A stretch of 53,351 bases of DNA, taken from positions 1 through 53,351 of the forward strand of contig JAURNY010000013.1 of the NCBI GenBank assembly GCA_030829955.1, written 5' to 3'. This DNA is from Gammaproteobacteria bacterium. Its GTDB lineage: Bacteria; Pseudomonadota; Gammaproteobacteria; Eutrophobiales; Eutrophobiaceae. The notes beneath the pieces are model-generated. The model ran no database searches, was not told where the DNA came from, and saw nothing but the letters and a program-made list of their open reading frames with translations. Position 1 is the stretch's first letter. Each line of letters begins with the position of its first letter. Below, in pieces: positions 19,999 through 44,785 of the stretch. The translations under genes and the position numbers were made by a program.

Positions 19999-20775
19999 CT
20001 ATTCGATGATTAATGAACTTTCCTGTTCAGTTTCGAGAACAAAATCATCATATTTTGAGACCGGTGGATTACCATCAAATATAAGATGCTCACGCTGCTG
20101 TAGATAGGCCTCGCGGGTGAAGACATAAGGATCAAGCGCTGCTTCATCACGAATGTTTGATGCTTCAAGCAGATTTGCACGGGTATTTACTGCATTCAAC
20201 GCGGTTACCGGTAATAAAACGATGCCTGATGCATAAAACAGTGGATTCAATAGGGTAGAAGGTACAAAGTTAGTTGTATTCCTAACCGTATTTGGGCCGA
20301 AAAAAGGTAGATATAGATATGATCCTTGATCAACACCCCATACTGCTAATGTTTGACCAAAGTCTTCATCGTGAGCTGATATTTCTAACGCAGTAGAAAC
20401 ATCAAAAAGCCCCCCGATGCCGATAGTAGAGTTGTAAAAAAAACGTAATGAGTCATGTATGCCTTGTTTCCATTTCCCTTGTAGAAAAGAGTTCAGGACA
20501 ACATTTAGATATGTAATGTTATTAAAAAAGTTTGTCACAGTAGTTCTAATTGGTTTAGGTGTGACACTTACATAGGCTTCAGCTGCTGGTTTAAAAATAT
20601 TTTTGTCCAATGATTCATTGACATCAAAAAATAGCCTGTTGGCAGGTTCAATTGAATCAGTGTTATGGACAACATCTTGTTTGATATTATTACCGGCACA
20701 ACCAGTAAAAAAAGCGATGACTATACTAAGAATTACCAGCTTTATAGAAACAAAAATACTTCTTGAAATCATCAT
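19999..20775 (-). CDS. mlaA: MlaA/VacJ family outer-membrane lipoprotein
   Basis: This 258-residue protein has a lipoprotein signal peptide with the lipobox FTGC, so Cys26 would be lipidated. The mature part begins with the family block DSIEPANRLFFDVNESLDKN and contains FFNNITYLNVVLNSFLQGK, GIGGLFDVST, FGQTLAVWGVDQGSYLYLPF and PSTLLNPLFY. MlaA forms a channel in the outer membrane for retrograde phospholipid transport with MlaC. Here it lies downstream of a MlaC/HpnM-like gene and hopanoid genes on the same strand, with no MlaBDEF transporter. Its cargo in this setting may be hopanoid or phospholipid (inference). Confidence 0.9.
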   Translation of the reverse strand: MMISRSIFVSIKLVILSIVIAFFTGCAGNNIKQDVVHNTDSIEPANRLFFDVNESLDKNIFKPAAEAYVSVTPKPIRTTVTNFFNNITYLNVVLNSFLQGKWKQGIHDSLRFFYNSTIGIGGLFDVSTALEISAHDEDFGQTLAVWGVDQGSYLYLPFFGPNTVRNTTNFVPSTLLNPLFYASGIVLLPVTALNAVNTRANLLEASNIRDEAALDPYVFTREAYLQQREHLIFDGNPPVSKYDDFVLETEQESSLIIE

Positions 20776-20857
20776 AGTTCTCTCAATTAAAGATGTTGGA
20801 AATTTTGATAGAATATTGACACAGGATTAAGCAACTGACAAACCCTGTTAGGAATGT

Positions 20858-21478
20858 TTAATCATTTTTTTTGATATCTGCGATCTGGGCAGTAATTTTG
20901 TTTACTAGTGCTGAAAATCCGGATACCTTAATTATTTTCGCATATTCAGCACGTTTTAGCGATAAATCACTGATACCATTAGCAATTACATTGACAATTT
21001 TCCATTGTGAGTCAGTTTGCTGAACGATGTAATCCAGTGCAACCGTATCATCTGCCGCTTTTAATTCTGTTCTGATTAAATATCGCTCGTTTTTTAGTGT
21101 TTCTGTCGATTTTGTTGAAAATATTTCCTGATTATAATTATTGAATCGATCAGCATAGGTTGTGACAGTGAGTTCATTAAATAAATTAATAAATTCATCT
21201 TGTTGTGCTTCATCCAAATTTATCCATGCACGACCAATAATAATTCTCGCAATTAGGCTGGTATCGAAACTACGTTTGATAACTGGTGATAATAATTCAA
21301 CTCGTTTTTCAAATTGTTCAGACTCGCCAAGCTTCATCGCTTCAATTAATGTTTTGTGTAATTCTAGGACAGGTTCGATGATCGAGGAATAATTCATTTC
21401 GGCAGCAAATACATGGCAAGGCAAAAACAGGAAATAAGAGAGGAATAGCCTGTTTGTTAAGACAAATATTTTGTTCAT
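20858..21478 (-). CDS. MlaC/HpnM-like periplasmic lipid-binding protein
   Basis: This 206-residue protein belongs to the Ttg2D/MlaC family. It has a signal peptide (about residues 1-25, ending HVFAA) and the family blocks RIIIGRAWINLDEAQQDEFI, FNELTVTTYADRFNNY and DSQWKIVNVIANGISDL. The start at 21478 is chosen because it directly precedes the signal peptide; a longer in-frame start at 21559 adds residues unlike the family. HpnM, the hopanoid-cluster member of this family, is the better guess than plain MlaC because hpnB and hpnH are immediately upstream. No other Mla subunits are nearby except MlaA. Confidence 0.83.
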   Translation of the reverse strand: MNKIFVLTNRLFLSYFLFLPCHVFAAEMNYSSIIEPVLELHKTLIEAMKLGESEQFEKRVELLSPVIKRSFDTSLIARIIIGRAWINLDEAQQDEFINLFNELTVTTYADRFNNYNQEIFSTKSTETLKNERYLIRTELKAADDTVALDYIVQQTDSQWKIVNVIANGISDLSLKRAEYAKIIKVSGFSALVNKITAQIADIKKND

Positions 21479-21534
21479 TTTTATCTCTACGGGTTTGTTA
21501 GTATATTTGATAAATAAATAATGGTTTTGTTGCA

Positions 21535-22650
21535 TTATTGGTAATTGCGGTCTTTCCAAGTCGCACCACTGGCAAAATAATATTCATAAGCTGAATGCCA
21601 GGTCATGATTAAATAAAGCGCACCTGCCAACGGTAATGTTATGACAAGATAGAGCGGCAGTGAATAATAGTTAATAGTAGGTAAATAACACAAAAACTGT
21701 ATTAACAATGTAATACTTGCAATAAACATAATAGTGCCAGTAGATGTAAATAGAATGTATAATGGCAGTATAAAGGCAACAAACATTAAGATTGTGCAAA
21801 GTATAAGCAGTAAAGGCGAGTAAAATAACTGTGTATATGCCGTTCGCGTTACCATTTTCCAAATAGTTTTCAGATCATCATAACTGCGAATACTCTTGGC
21901 AGAATGTGTTAGACCGGTCCAGCAACGATAACCCGCTTTTTTTATCTGTGCTGCCAGACTGCAATCGTCAATTAAAGCGTTCTTGATGCAGGTAAAGCCA
22001 CCAAGTTCTTTAAGCACTTTGTTTTCAAGCAATATAAAACCACCAGCAGCTGCAGAAAAACTATTACCATGACGATTAGCCAAATTAAACGGGTAAAGCA
22101 ATTTAAAGAAGAAAATAAAGGCTGGCATTAAAAACCTTTCCCAGCTTGTTTCCATTTTTAGAAAAGCCATTAATGACAACATTTGTAAATTTTCTTCAGT
22201 CACCTTTTTTAATACTGTAGAGATCAAGCTCGGCTTTAGCGTGATATCAGCATCAAGTAATAAAATGTATTTTGTTGAGATGTTTTGTCGACCCTGTTCC
22301 AGTGCCCAGAGTTTGCCGCACCAGCCAGCTTCCAGTGGTTTACCTTGGATGATCTGCAGATTTTCACAATCGACAGACAATGCCTTTTCTATCGTATTAT
22401 CACTCGATTGATCATCAACCAGAATAATGTTGAGGTTTTGTCCTTGGGCTTTGAGCGAAGTGAGAGTTTGTTGAATGGTTTCTGCTTCATTTCTTGCAGG
22501 TATTAAGACAGTAACATTGGACAGATCTAATGATAGAAATACAGAGTCGGCGTCAAGTGTCTCCCGTATACTCCACGGGCGCCAAGGTAAAAACAGAATT
22601 GCCAGCCATATAAAAAGTCCTGGCATGGCGACCAGAAGAGCTAAATTCAT
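21535..22650 (-). CDS. hpnB: HpnB-like glycosyltransferase (hopanoid-associated)
   Basis: This 371-residue membrane protein is a family 2 glycosyltransferase. It has a hydrophobic N-terminus, a GT-A domain with VTVLIPARNEAETI, ILVDDQSSDNT and the metal-binding LLLDADITLKP, then DDCSLAAQIKKAGYR, and three or four C-terminal helices. GWCGKLWALEQG and FSAAAGGFILL match HpnB, the glycosyltransferase of hopanoid clusters. The start at 22650 overlaps the hpnH stop by one base (TAATG arrangement), showing coupling. The substrate is not defined by the sequence. Confidence 0.87.
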   Translation of the reverse strand: MNLALLVAMPGLFIWLAILFLPWRPWSIRETLDADSVFLSLDLSNVTVLIPARNEAETIQQTLTSLKAQGQNLNIILVDDQSSDNTIEKALSVDCENLQIIQGKPLEAGWCGKLWALEQGRQNISTKYILLLDADITLKPSLISTVLKKVTEENLQMLSLMAFLKMETSWERFLMPAFIFFFKLLYPFNLANRHGNSFSAAAGGFILLENKVLKELGGFTCIKNALIDDCSLAAQIKKAGYRCWTGLTHSAKSIRSYDDLKTIWKMVTRTAYTQLFYSPLLLILCTILMFVAFILPLYILFTSTGTIMFIASITLLIQFLCYLPTINYYSLPLYLVITLPLAGALYLIMTWHSAYEYYFASGATWKDRNYQ

Positions 22651-23780
22651 TAAGCGACTTGTTTGTTCTTGCCGCAACTACGATTTTCTTTGTTTTCTCT
22701 AACTAGTGTCGGTTTCATTTCGACATCATCATCGTATAAAACAGGAAGTTCAGGTGCCATTTCACCTTCTGTTTTTGGACCTTTCAAAAACACCTTGAAT
22801 GCTTTTAATGGCGAACGGAAGGTATCATCTACTGCAGTCGCTTCGTAACCACAATGCACCATACAGTTAGTGCATTTCGGATTTTTACCTGTGCCGTAGT
22901 TATCCCAAATAGTATTTTCCATTAATTCATAGAATGATGAGGCATAACCTTCACCCACTAATAGGTAGCATGGTTTTTGCCACCCAAACACATTACGCGT
23001 TGGGTTACCCCAAGGAGTACATTGATAAGTTTGATTGCCAGCAAGAAAATCCAGATATAGCGAAGATTGATTAAAACGCCATTTCTTACCAAAACCCAGC
23101 GTGAACACATCACGGAAAAGTTGCTTACTTTCTCTTTTCTTCAGGAAAACATCCTGTTTTGGGGCACGCTCATAACTGTATCCGGGTGAGATGGTTACGC
23201 CTTCAACGCCCAATTCCATCGCCATATCCATAAATTCAGCAATCTCTTTAGCAGATTCGCCCTGGAACAAAGTACAGTTAATCGTCACACGAAAGCCTTT
23301 TTCAATCGCCAGTTTAATTACATTAACTGCCTTATCGAATACGCCTTCTTGACAAACAGATGCGTCATGGCGTTCACGATTTCCATCCAGATGGATTGAA
23401 AATGTTAAATATGGAGATGGTTTATATTCATCAATATGTTTTTTCAGCAATATTGCGTTGGTGCAAAGGTAAACGAATTTCTTTCGATCAATAAACCCGT
23501 TTACGATTTGATTCATTTCTTTGTGGATTAGTGGTTCACCACCTGCTATTGAAACAACTGGCGCACCACATTCGTCAATGGCCTCCATACATTCGTCATA
23601 GCTAAGGCGTTTATCAAGGATTTCTTTTGGATAATCAATCTTGCCACAACCAGCACAGGCGAGATTGCAACGAAACAGAGGCTCGAGCATAAGTACTAGA
23701 GGGTATTTTTTTATACCTTTAAGCTTTTGTTCGATGATATATCTACCGACTCTGTACTGCTGTATCAGTGGTACGCCCAT
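22650..23780 (-). CDS. hpnH: Adenosyl-hopene transferase HpnH (radical SAM)
   Basis: This 376-residue radical SAM enzyme has the cluster motif CNLACAGC (Cys38, Cys42, Cys45), followed by SIAGGEPLIHKEM and TFSIHLDGNRERHD. The C-terminal part has additional cysteines in NPKCTNCMVHCGYEA, consistent with the DUF3463-type extension. HpnH joins a 5'-deoxyadenosyl group to diploptene, giving adenosylhopane, the entry to extended hopanoids. It is the first gene of a four-gene run ending in mlaA and diverges from dxs, which supplies isoprenoid precursor. Squalene-hopene cyclase is not in this window. Confidence 0.93.
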   Translation of the reverse strand: MGVPLIQQYRVGRYIIEQKLKGIKKYPLVLMLEPLFRCNLACAGCGKIDYPKEILDKRLSYDECMEAIDECGAPVVSIAGGEPLIHKEMNQIVNGFIDRKKFVYLCTNAILLKKHIDEYKPSPYLTFSIHLDGNRERHDASVCQEGVFDKAVNVIKLAIEKGFRVTINCTLFQGESAKEIAEFMDMAMELGVEGVTISPGYSYERAPKQDVFLKKRESKQLFRDVFTLGFGKKWRFNQSSLYLDFLAGNQTYQCTPWGNPTRNVFGWQKPCYLLVGEGYASSFYELMENTIWDNYGTGKNPKCTNCMVHCGYEATAVDDTFRSPLKAFKVFLKGPKTEGEMAPELPVLYDDDVEMKPTLVRENKENRSCGKNKQVA

Positions 23781-42700: not shown

Positions 42701-43021
42701 ATGTTAGACAAGAAAAAACCAAATGCTTTATCACTGGCTTTAGGCACTAGCTTTGCAGTAACACTGGCTGCCAGTAATCTGGTCAATGCTGCAGATAACC
42801 CTTTTGCTGCAAATGAGATCAAATCCGGTTATATGGTTGCTGAAGGTCATGGCGAAGGCAAATGTGGCGAAGGCAAATGTGGTGAGAACAAAAAAGAAGA
42901 AGGTAAATGCGGCGAAGGTAAATGCGGCGAAAACAAAGCTGGCGAAGGAAGCTGTGGAGAGAAAGGCGGCGAAGGAAGCTGTGGTGAAAGCAAATCTGGC
43001 GAAGGTAAATGTGGCCACTAA
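42701..43021 (+). CDS. hvfA: Secreted copper-RiPP precursor with seven EG(K/S)CG repeats (HvfA/bufferin-like)
   Basis: This 106-residue precursor has a signal peptide (about residues 1-30, charged start MLDKKKP, hydrophobic core, likely cut after VNA). A short conserved leader-like block, NPFAANEIKSGYMVAEG, follows, then Gly/Glu/Lys-rich repeats carrying seven cysteines at 55, 60, 70, 75, 85, 94 and 104. Five are in EGKCG and two in EGSCG. In HvfA and bufferins, a DUF692 enzyme converts the EGKCG cysteines to oxazolone/thioamide pairs that bind copper in the periplasm. The family assignment follows from the motif plus the two next genes. The two EGSCG sites are a variation whose modification is unknown. 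It has a strong ribosome site and is the first gene of the operon. Confidence 0.9.
   Translation: MLDKKKPNALSLALGTSFAVTLAASNLVNAADNPFAANEIKSGYMVAEGHGEGKCGEGKCGENKKEEGKCGEGKCGENKAGEGSCGEKGGEGSCGESKSGEGKCGH
42851..43017 (+). repeat. Tandem 15 bp coding repeats in the RiPP precursor gene
   Basis: The unit GGCGAAGGCAAATGT (Gly-Glu-Gly-Lys-Cys) occurs twice in direct tandem at 42851-42880. Diverged copies follow near 42898-42927 and as single copies near 42941, 42968 and 42998. Synonymous differences (GGC/GGT, TGT/TGC) between early and late copies suggest the array grew by local duplication. Confidence 0.85.
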
Positions 43022-43026
43022 TCTTT

Positions 43027-43050
43027 AACTAAGTACCCCTTACTTTAGTT
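43027..43050 (+). promoter_or_regulatory. Hairpin between precursor and modifying-enzyme genes
   Basis: AACTAAGT (43027-43034) pairs with ACTTTAGTT (43042-43050) with one bulged T, and the stem ends directly at the hvfB ATG. The 29 bp gap has no Shine-Dalgarno sequence. It could reduce hvfB translation or mark a processing site, giving more precursor than enzyme. Confidence 0.5.
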
Positions 43051-43908
43051 ATGTCTAATCAATACCCGATAACGGGAGCTGGATTAGGTCTGCGGCGGGC
43101 TTTTATAGGCCCGCTCGCAGATTCAGTACCGGAAGTCATAGACTTTCTTGAAGTCGCACCGGAAAACTGGATTGATATAGGTGGTAAATTTGCCTATCAA
43201 TTCAGAAAAGTCGCAGAACAACGTCCAATTGTCTGTCATGGGTTGTCACTTAATATTGGTGGTTTTGCGCCACTTGATGAAGCCTTTGTCCGAAAGGTTA
43301 AACAATTTCTCGATACGTTTAATGTCCCTGTCTATAGTGATCATTTGACTTACTGTGCTGATGAGGGGCAACTTTATGATCTTATGCCCATTCCATTTAC
43401 GGAAGCTGCGGTTGAACATGTTGCTAATCGCATAGTCAGGGTGCAGGAAATTCTGGGCAGACAAATCGCGATGGAAAATGCATCTTACTATGCTGCCCCC
43501 GGGCAAGAGATGGATGAAATCGATTTTATCAATGAAGTATTAAAAAAAGCCGATTGTTTATTGCATCTCGATATTAATAATATTTATGTCAATAGTATTA
43601 ATCATAATTACGACGCAGAACAATTCCTGAAATCCTTACCAGGTGAGCGCATTGTTTATGCTCATATTGCTGGTCATTATGTTGAAGCTGAAGACATAAG
43701 AGTAGATACACATGGTGCAGACGTTATCGATCCTGTCTGGCAATTATTGGATACGGCGTATCAACACTTTGGTGTTTTTCCTACGCTCTTGGAAAGAGAC
43801 TTTAATATTCCTCCAATTGATGAATTATTAAAAGAAGTAATAACTATCCGTCATTATCAGGATAAATATCAGGTAGCAAGTCATGAGCAAAAACGTCAGC
43901 AATCCTAA
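43051..43908 (+). CDS. hvfB: DUF692 multinuclear non-heme iron oxidase (MNIO), RiPP-modifying enzyme
   Basis: This 285-residue TIM-barrel enzyme belongs to DUF692, which includes MbnB and HvfB. Candidate metal ligands are all present: Glu34/Glu38 in LEVAPENW, His63 in VCHGLSLN, Asp97/His98 in YSDHLTY, Glu142/Asn143 in AMENASYY, Asp174/Asn176 in HLDINNIY, His205/His209 in AHIAGHY, His221/Asp224 in THGADVID and Glu248 in LLERD. In the HvfABC type it oxidises cysteines of the precursor to oxazolone/thioamide groups with oxygen. It starts 29 bp after hvfA with no visible ribosome site and overlaps hvfC by 26 bp. Confidence 0.93.
   Translation: MSNQYPITGAGLGLRRAFIGPLADSVPEVIDFLEVAPENWIDIGGKFAYQFRKVAEQRPIVCHGLSLNIGGFAPLDEAFVRKVKQFLDTFNVPVYSDHLTYCADEGQLYDLMPIPFTEAAVEHVANRIVRVQEILGRQIAMENASYYAAPGQEMDEIDFINEVLKKADCLLHLDINNIYVNSINHNYDAEQFLKSLPGERIVYAHIAGHYVEAEDIRVDTHGADVIDPVWQLLDTAYQHFGVFPTLLERDFNIPPIDELLKEVITIRHYQDKYQVASHEQKRQQS
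43090..43120 (+). promoter_or_regulatory. Strong GC-rich hairpin inside the 5' coding region of hvfB
   Basis: CTGCGGCGGGC (43090-43100) pairs with GCCCGCTCGCAG (43109-43120) across an 8-base loop with one bulge. It lies at codons 14-24 of hvfB and is much more GC-rich than its surroundings. No T run follows, so pausing or translation control is more likely than termination. Confidence 0.6.
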
Positions 43909-44665
43909 TTCATTTAAGTCGGTTCAAAAAATATTTACGCAGCACTTGCGTGATCCTGAAAAAAATATCCCGCCGGAAGGTTTAGAAGATTGTCGTTTAC
44001 AGATCTATCGGGAATTAATATATAACAATATTCAAAACTTTCTGGGCAATAGCTTCCCGGTGATCAGAAAGATAATGGATGATGAATCATGGCATAAATT
44101 AATGCGGGATTATGTCAGTCAGCATCAGGCACGAACACCTTTATTTCCGAAAATGCCGCAAGAGTTTCTGAAATATCTGAATGATGATAATTCTCGCATT
44201 CCAAAAGCATTTCCATTTCTCGAAGAGTTAGCGCATTACGAATGGGTGGAAACATCACTTTCCTTTGATGAACGTGAAGCTGATTTTGAGCATATAGACT
44301 CCTCTGCGGATTTGATGTCGGGTATACCAGTTTTAAATCCGGTTTCAATGCCTCTTGCCTATCGTTGGCCGGTACATAAACTTTCCCCTGATTTTATACC
44401 TGATACCCCTCCTGCGGACATGACTTACATCATTGTTTTTCGTAAGGAAAATTTTGAGATTAGCTTTATAGAGCTAAATCCGGTATCGGCCAGATTGATT
44501 GAACATATAAATGCTCAACTTGATAAAACCACGCATGAACTGCTAATGAATATTGCCGAAGAGTTACAGCACCCTAATCCGGAAATTGTAGTGAATGGTG
44601 GTGCAACATTAATAAATAATATGTTTGATGCGGGTGTTATTTTAGGTGTTAAGAAAGATGTCTAA
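43883..44665 (+). CDS. hvfC: DUF2063 partner protein of the MNIO enzyme
   Basis: This 260-residue protein begins with the DUF2063 domain (about residues 10-105): FTQHLRDPEKNIPPEGLEDC, RLQIYRELIYNNIQNFLGNS, FPVIRK and FPKMPQEFLKYL. The rest has the HvfC-like region with FLEELAHYEWVE. Such proteins bind the precursor and present it to the DUF692 enzyme, like MbnC with MbnB. The start overlaps hvfB by 26 bp, indicating coupled synthesis of the two partners. There is no signal peptide, so modification occurs before export. Confidence 0.92.
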   Translation: MSKNVSNPNSFKSVQKIFTQHLRDPEKNIPPEGLEDCRLQIYRELIYNNIQNFLGNSFPVIRKIMDDESWHKLMRDYVSQHQARTPLFPKMPQEFLKYLNDDNSRIPKAFPFLEELAHYEWVETSLSFDEREADFEHIDSSADLMSGIPVLNPVSMPLAYRWPVHKLSPDFIPDTPPADMTYIIVFRKENFEISFIELNPVSARLIEHINAQLDKTTHELLMNIAEELQHPNPEIVVNGGATLINNMFDAGVILGVKKDV

Positions 44666-44698: not shown

Positions 44699-44785
44699 AT
44701 GAACATTGTTATTACATTAGCCAGTCAGTTAGATCAATATTATCGAAATTTGAAACGGATTCCATTTGTCATACTCCGGATGTAA
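44699..44785 (+). other. 28-codon reading frame after hvfC, possible DoxX-gene remnant
   Basis: An ATG at 44699 with GGAG about 10 bp upstream opens a 28-residue frame ending LDQYYRNLKRIPFVILRM. Bufferin operons often carry a DoxX-family membrane protein after the hvfC gene, and such proteins start with a similar short helix ending in LLLRL. The resemblance is weak, and the frame stops where the first helix should extend. It could be a truncated doxX, a real small peptide, or chance. Confidence 0.35.

Follow-up and report, generated by a model that had tools for sequence, protein, structure and literature searches.

Captophorin-type multinuclear iron oxidases (MNIOs, DUF692) form a class of tens of thousands of enzymes (PMC13097082). 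Among their described products, 5-thiooxazoles have been assigned in fontiphorin, oxazolin and gonophorin and are also stated for bufferin 1 (PMC13097082), and HvfA has likewise been reassigned to 5-thiooxazole by the authors of PMC13419390. Fontiphorin, made by a three-gene cluster, carries seven 5-thiooxazoles and binds copper (PMC13097082). The HvfC partner family is described as bearing a recognition element for ribosomally synthesized and post-translationally modified peptides (RiPPs) (PMC13419390), and the DoxX protein HvfX as encoded by a core gene of these clusters (PMC12452194, PMC13419390). Here we describe an operon of this kind on contig JAURNY010000013.1 (assembly GCA_030829955.1) from a gammaproteobacterium of the Eutrophobiaceae, analyzed over its full 53,351 nt (hereafter the window; the whole genome is labelled G000). 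With its three genes for a secreted copper-binding peptide, the operon is of an ordinary type that is known in many bacteria. Very probably it is a captophorin (Buf_EGKCG) operon of the HvfABC, Lys-Cys type that specifies a secreted, Cu(I)-binding 5-thiooxazole peptide and has lost HvfX.

Modifying enzymes and precursor peptide

The products of hvfB and hvfC score far above their NCBIfam equivalog cut-offs (HvfB, NF003818, 432.2 bits with a cut-off of 360; HvfC, NF050145, 274.9 bits with a cut-off of 142) and match the Pfam families PF05114 (341, cut-off 25) and PF09836 (83.8, cut-off 27.2), respectively, which bears out the DUF692 enzyme and DUF2063 partner identities proposed in an earlier note on this DNA. 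Among solved structures, 3bww is closest in sequence to HvfB (E 5e-74) and 3dee to HvfC (E 3e-10); both are contained in the MNIO-PME1 data set of PMC13097082. At E <= 0.001, the whole window genome holds one MNIO, one DUF2063 protein and one repeat precursor.

For comparison, 89 related loci were surveyed (L002-L053 and L086-L122; L054-L085, which came from genome searches, were left out), 88 of which have an HvfB match at E <= 1e-20, yielding 83 distinct HvfB sequences. The active-site residues of the window HvfB (H63, E142, N143, D174, N176, N177, H205, H209, D219, H221 and E248-R249-D250-F251) are intact, and they are invariant in the aligned rows of the 83 relatives except for N143 (80/83) and F251 (77/81). 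Two N-terminal arginines and a phenylalanine following the catalytic aspartate have been linked to Lys-Cys captophorin MNIOs (PMC13097082; R15, R16, D249 and F250 in FonB). The corresponding selectivity residues R15, R16, D250 and F251 are all present in the window enzyme and are conserved in 79/82, 80/83, 81/81 and 77/81 relatives. Residue 97 is Asp in the window enzyme, as in 3bww, and Glu in 80 of the 83 relatives; D97 would not be expected to disable the enzyme.

The precursor begins with a predicted Sec signal peptide, whose KKK, hydrophobic stretch and VNA/AD cleavage point were judged by eye, and continues with an NPF...SGYMVAEG leader/spacer that resembles those of many related precursors. 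Each of its cysteines (residues 55, 60, 70, 75, 85, 94 and 104) lies within one of five EGKCG motifs (starting at 42854, 42869, 42899, 42914 and 43001) or two EGSCG motifs (starting at 42944 and 42971), a count of seven that compares with a mean of 0.02 and a maximum of 2 in 20,000 shuffles of the 77 residues after position 29. These motif counts, the gene coordinates and the 26-bp overlap of hvfB and hvfC (43883-43908), all given in the earlier note, held when the open reading frames (ORFs) were rechecked. In the comparison with HvfA/bufferin-type profiles that had been named beforehand as a check, the precursor passed the HvfA-family repeat model NF050137 (40.3 bits, cut-off 19.5) and missed the strict HvfA equivalog NF050188. 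A Pfam scan of the precursor returned no family, so that it is not a DUF2282 protein.

A rule-based search recovered a precursor at 72 of the 83 loci, three of the 11 without one lying at contig edges. Cysteine numbers in these precursors range from 3 to 17, the low end being set by the rule, which requires at least three; the median is seven, and 40 of the 72 have seven or more. Across 384 EGxCG motifs in the relatives, the variable residue is Lys in 279, Ser in 47 and Ala in 32, making Ser the second commonest residue at the third motif position. Judged by these counts, seven sites including some EGSCG motifs are typical, and the suggestion that the peptide has more sites than a simple chelator needs is not supported: seven is the median, fontiphorin also has seven, and a family member with 58 cysteines is the longest reported (PMC12452194). 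Since FonBC tolerates Ala, Arg or Thr at the third motif position (PMC13097082), Ser is likely to be accepted there as well. Among the surveyed loci, a close relative (L086) has five SCG motifs and zero KCG motifs; L104, L098 and L115 have two or three tandem precursor genes upstream of hvfB, and in L104 and L098 the precursor nearest hvfB carries KCGxICGG-type repeats.

The chemistry, export and copper binding proposed for the window product follow those of characterized relatives. By this analogy, HvfC would recognize the precursor and hold it to HvfB, which, with its iron cluster and O2, would turn the EGKCG and EGSCG cysteines into 5-thiooxazoles (-4 Da each). Export through Sec would then bring the modified peptide into the periplasm, and Cu(I) would be bound there by its thiol-bearing heterocycles. 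The oxazolone/thioamide chemistry previously given for HvfA and the bufferins is outdated, bufferin 1 having been assigned a 5-thiooxazole and HvfA having been revised by two groups (PMC13097082, PMC13419390); because of this revision, up to seven 5-thiooxazoles would be expected in the product peptide.

A methanobactin-like chalkophore, serving copper acquisition and not buffering, would draw on the same enzyme superfamily, and the window genome does encode a copper-needing CtaD-type cytochrome c oxidase subunit I. Yet HvfB reaches only 47.7 bits on the MbnB model TIGR04159 (cut-off 325), the precursor is a long multi-site protein of the Sec type, and no uptake gene adjoins the operon, whose neighbors are lysS before and argG after (families checked by Pfam). 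We therefore regard a chalkophore as highly improbable. HvfB also falls below the cut-off of the BufB model NF050167 (263.3 bits, cut-off 310).

The hvfX stub and the inheritance of the site

Four DoxX queries picked up DoxX at 19 of the 37 related loci searched, always downstream of hvfB but at varying distance; contig ends cut short some of the other 18 loci. In a same-genus genome (G001, locus L090), which is among the 19, hvfC is directly followed by an open DoxX gene of 219 codons (PF07681, 71.2 bits). In the window, a stub encoding an N-terminus only begins 33 bases after hvfC, behind a ribosome-binding site resembling that of L090. In a comparison with the N-terminal 50 residues of DoxX from L090, the stub scores 39, a value reached in 7 of 20,000 shuffles, and its top matches among 1,586 ORF N-termini are the DoxX proteins of L051 (PF07681, 63.0 bits) and L090. 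Averaged over 12 DoxX N-termini, its score is matched by 14% of shuffles and is not significant, so the stub was called on the nearest-relative match, its position and its ribosome-binding site.

No DoxX remainder is recognizable in the 174 bases from the stub to argG, and neither PF07681 nor the L090 protein (E <= 10) finds a DoxX in the whole window genome. PF07681 detects DoxX in 12 of 17 genomes searched, the window genome being among the five without. Thus, the intact HvfX of a four-gene hvfABCX operon is replaced here by a 28-codon stub with no PF07681 match in the genome. We conclude that hvfX is, to judge from the sequence, truncated in this organism. Such a truncation leaves an ABC set, as in fonABC and in three related genomes of genus g17 (G017, G027 and G034; 1.4-1.5 Mb) that keep hvfABC and in which DoxX was not found; in the proposed mechanism, the membrane partner would have been lost in this way, giving a minimal set comparable to the fontiphorin cluster.

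In several relatives, too, lysS precedes the hvf genes and argG comes after them (L093 checked by Pfam, others named by eye), and argG directly follows hvfC in L008, L015 and L048 (Legionellales or Gammaproteobacteria records). Because of this synteny, the operon appears to be an old resident of the site and not a recent import. An HvfB-like match is present in 47 of 58 genomes searched (window genome included), some of these matches being distant MNIOs. The genes, their families, the active-site residues, the synteny and the hvfX stub are established in the present analysis; positions are collected in the table.

Table. Features of the captophorin operon in the window
Feature	Position	Strand	Description
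hvfA-like captophorin precursor gene	42701..43021	+	106 aa ORF
Predicted Sec signal peptide	42701..42790	+	residues 1-30, MLDKKKPNALSLALGTSFAVTLAASNLVNA; by eye and from related precursors
Core, seven EGxCG motifs	42854..43015	+	base positions computed from residue positions
hvfB, MNIO (DUF692) enzyme	43051..43908	+	285 aa; NF003818, PF05114, 3bww match
hvfC, DUF2063 + NGO1945_C partner	43883..44665	+	260 aa; NF050145, PF09836, PF22106, 3dee
hvfX (DoxX-like) stub	44699..44785	+	28 codons; ribosome-binding site, N-terminus only, then stop

In one related locus (L106), a 499-aa glutamate-synthase-domain protein (PF01645) is encoded between hvfC and doxX. Elsewhere in the window, a hopanoid-associated cluster (19999-23780, minus strand) encodes HpnH and HpnM, which exceed their NCBIfam cut-offs, an HpnB-like glycosyltransferase just below its cut-off, and an MlaA lipoprotein (Pfam).

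Upstream region and copper background

Upstream regions from 24 relatives were compared together with that of the window. An initial k-mer count returned AT-rich words, Shine-Dalgarno sequences and GAACTTT/GAAACTTT words, which led to a two-box pattern, AACTT[T/C]-N14-GTCNA. Sixteen of the 24 relatives (including L087, L088, L092-L097, L101, L102, L105-L107 and L110) carry it upstream of hvfA, at a distance of 131 to 186 bases, and only at a spacing of 14 when spacings of 10 to 20 were tried. In 300 rounds of dinucleotide shuffling, the pattern turned up in 0.02 sequences on average and in 1 at most. Both strands of all 89 loci (695,311 bases) together contain 28 matches, spread over 25 of the loci. 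A sigma-70 consensus scan returned 4 sites, compared with an average of 9.1 in shuffles. Between lysS and hvfA, L088 carries an ECF-type (extracytoplasmic function) sigma gene and a zf-HC2 gene (Pfam), the zf-HC2 domain being often found in anti-sigma factors; nothing like these genes occurs in the window gap before hvfA. Similar sigma/zf-HC2-like genes were seen by eye upstream of hvfA in L092. The AACTT[T/C] box is similar to GGAACTT, the -35 element of E. coli sigma-E quoted in PMC2893595. ECF control of homologous operons is known from Neisseria sigma-E, with other boxes (PMC2893595), and from H. influenzae, where the operon is under the ECF factor RpoE2 as part of the hypochlorite response (PMC7907618). 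In the relatives, the two-box pattern probably serves captophorin operons as an ECF sigma promoter. The loci L098 and L104, with tandem precursor genes, contain two copies each, so that separate precursor genes may own promoters.

An exact match to the two boxes is absent from the entire window. The same-genus locus L090 has a weaker form (9/11 positions, p 0.09), and three g17 loci (L113, L114 and L116) also lack the pattern. Closer to hvfA, 26-65 bases before its start, some regions contain a short hairpin that is variable in sequence (e.g., L092, L095 and L106). Over the interval -65..-26, the mean best hairpin score is 12.33, compared with 9.11 in mononucleotide shuffles (25 regions), and p <= 0.05 is reached in 9/25 regions versus 2 to 4/25 in four control intervals; whole-region folding relative to dinucleotide shuffles gives a weak signal (mean z -0.5). 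The window upstream region is without the hairpin (p 0.6).

The window genome is scored 100% complete. The copper ATPase model TIGR01511 and the P-type ATPase domain PF00122 have zero matches in it, and PF00122 matches 14/14 control genomes. In a comparison of 25 genomes, all picked for a strong HvfB match (window genome included) and with no hvf-negative comparator, TIGR01511 matches 18 (17 over cut-off), including the same-genus G001, and has no match in G000, G015, G017, G027, G034, G039 and G042. There are 11 RND-type (resistance-nodulation-division) matches in the window genome; four were scanned, and two of these are CusA/CzcA-family pumps over cut-off, so the organism may expel metals from the periplasm. 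Caulobacter vibrioides, the source of bufferin 1 (PMC13097082), is reported to be without a canonical CopA (PMC12617631). This background hints, without proving it, at a possibly greater importance of captophorins in organisms that lack the copper pump. That the captophorin replaces the pump outright, with the peptide binding Cu(I) in the cytoplasm and its Sec export doubling as copper export, seems to us very hard to credit.

Several observations weigh against the reading as a captophorin operon of the HvfABC type. The precursor scores 38.3 bits on NF050188, whose cut-off is 95, and the window upstream region approaches the two-box pattern at best in 9/11 positions, at -114 (p 0.25). The portions of the published work on these operons used here contain no test of an EGSCG site. 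In the Microbulbifer study, MmrA-C were undetected with or without added copper, no more than a slight effect was seen in E. coli, and the authors were hesitant about a protective role, leaving copper protection disputed for the EGKCG branch (PMC12538549).

The Microbulbifer results would also fit a product that acts against a stress other than copper (oxidative stress or a different metal) and binds copper only incidentally, as would the control of the H. influenzae operon by RpoE2 within the hypochlorite response and the proposal of functions beyond copper in the landscape paper PMC12452194; we consider this possible and rather unlikely. The undetected MmrA-C proteins could equally be cited for decay, in which the operon would be unexpressed or useless after loss of hvfX and of a regulated promoter, and hvfABC would be passengers in a shrinking genome. 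Consistent with decay, hvfX is reduced to a stub, the promoter pattern of the 16 relatives and the leader hairpin are missing from the window, and the genome measures 1.9 Mb versus 3.1 Mb in the same-genus genome. However, hvfA, hvfB and hvfC are all open, the conserved residues are kept, and HvfB is 74% identical to the same-genus copy. Moreover, since the small g17 genomes retain hvfABC while lacking both DoxX and the promoter pattern, the ABC set can persist without them, and decay appears distinctly unlikely. The captophorin assignment is retained. Of the exported copper-buffering peptide that the earlier note had proposed, the family and, by analogy, a secreted copper-binding RiPP are supported; buffering is plausible and, for the EGKCG branch, disputed.

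Comparison with described systems

The operon itself adds one member to a large known class. It is a well-supported, ordinary member, distinguished by a truncated partner gene, a missing promoter pattern and an unusual copper background. Of possible note is that a genome scored as complete, with a copper-dependent oxidase, keeps hvfABC although DoxX, a P-type ATPase and the relatives' promoter pattern were not found in it. A captophorin operon so stripped down, for which partner, usual promoter and copper pump were not found, makes a useful test case; the disputed role in copper protection ought to show most readily in lineages that lack a CopA-type pump. A second handle, on what switches captophorin operons on, comes from the promoter pattern found in the relatives.

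Bufferin 1 (DUF2282) operons, such as that of Caulobacter, share with the window operon the MNIO and DUF2063 pair, a Sec-type precursor and the thiooxazole, which is predicted in the window; unlike bufferin 1, the window precursor has no DUF2282 match, and the window HvfB lies below the BufB cut-off. The Microbulbifer mmrABC operon (bulbicupramide) resembles it in its EGKCG units, five to eight cysteines and Cu(I) binding, the last of these being predicted in the window, and differs in belonging to another genus and in that DoxX has 0 mentions in the main text of PMC12538549. The hvf (oxazolin) operon of nontypeable H. influenzae likewise combines a signal-peptide precursor bearing EGKCG repeats with HvfB and HvfC, but has six modified cysteines in HvfA and includes HvfX (PMC13419390), and it is under RpoE2 (PMC7907618), unlike the window operon, whose precursor also scores below the HvfA equivalog cut-off. 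In contrast to fontiphorin, two of the seven window motifs are EGSCG and an hvfX stub remains behind hvfC. With the fonABC cluster of Fontimonas thermophila, the window operon shares a content of three genes only, EGKCG-type repeats and seven modifiable cysteines, and FonB, like the window MNIO, has Arg15/Arg16 and the Asp-Phe pair (PMC13097082).
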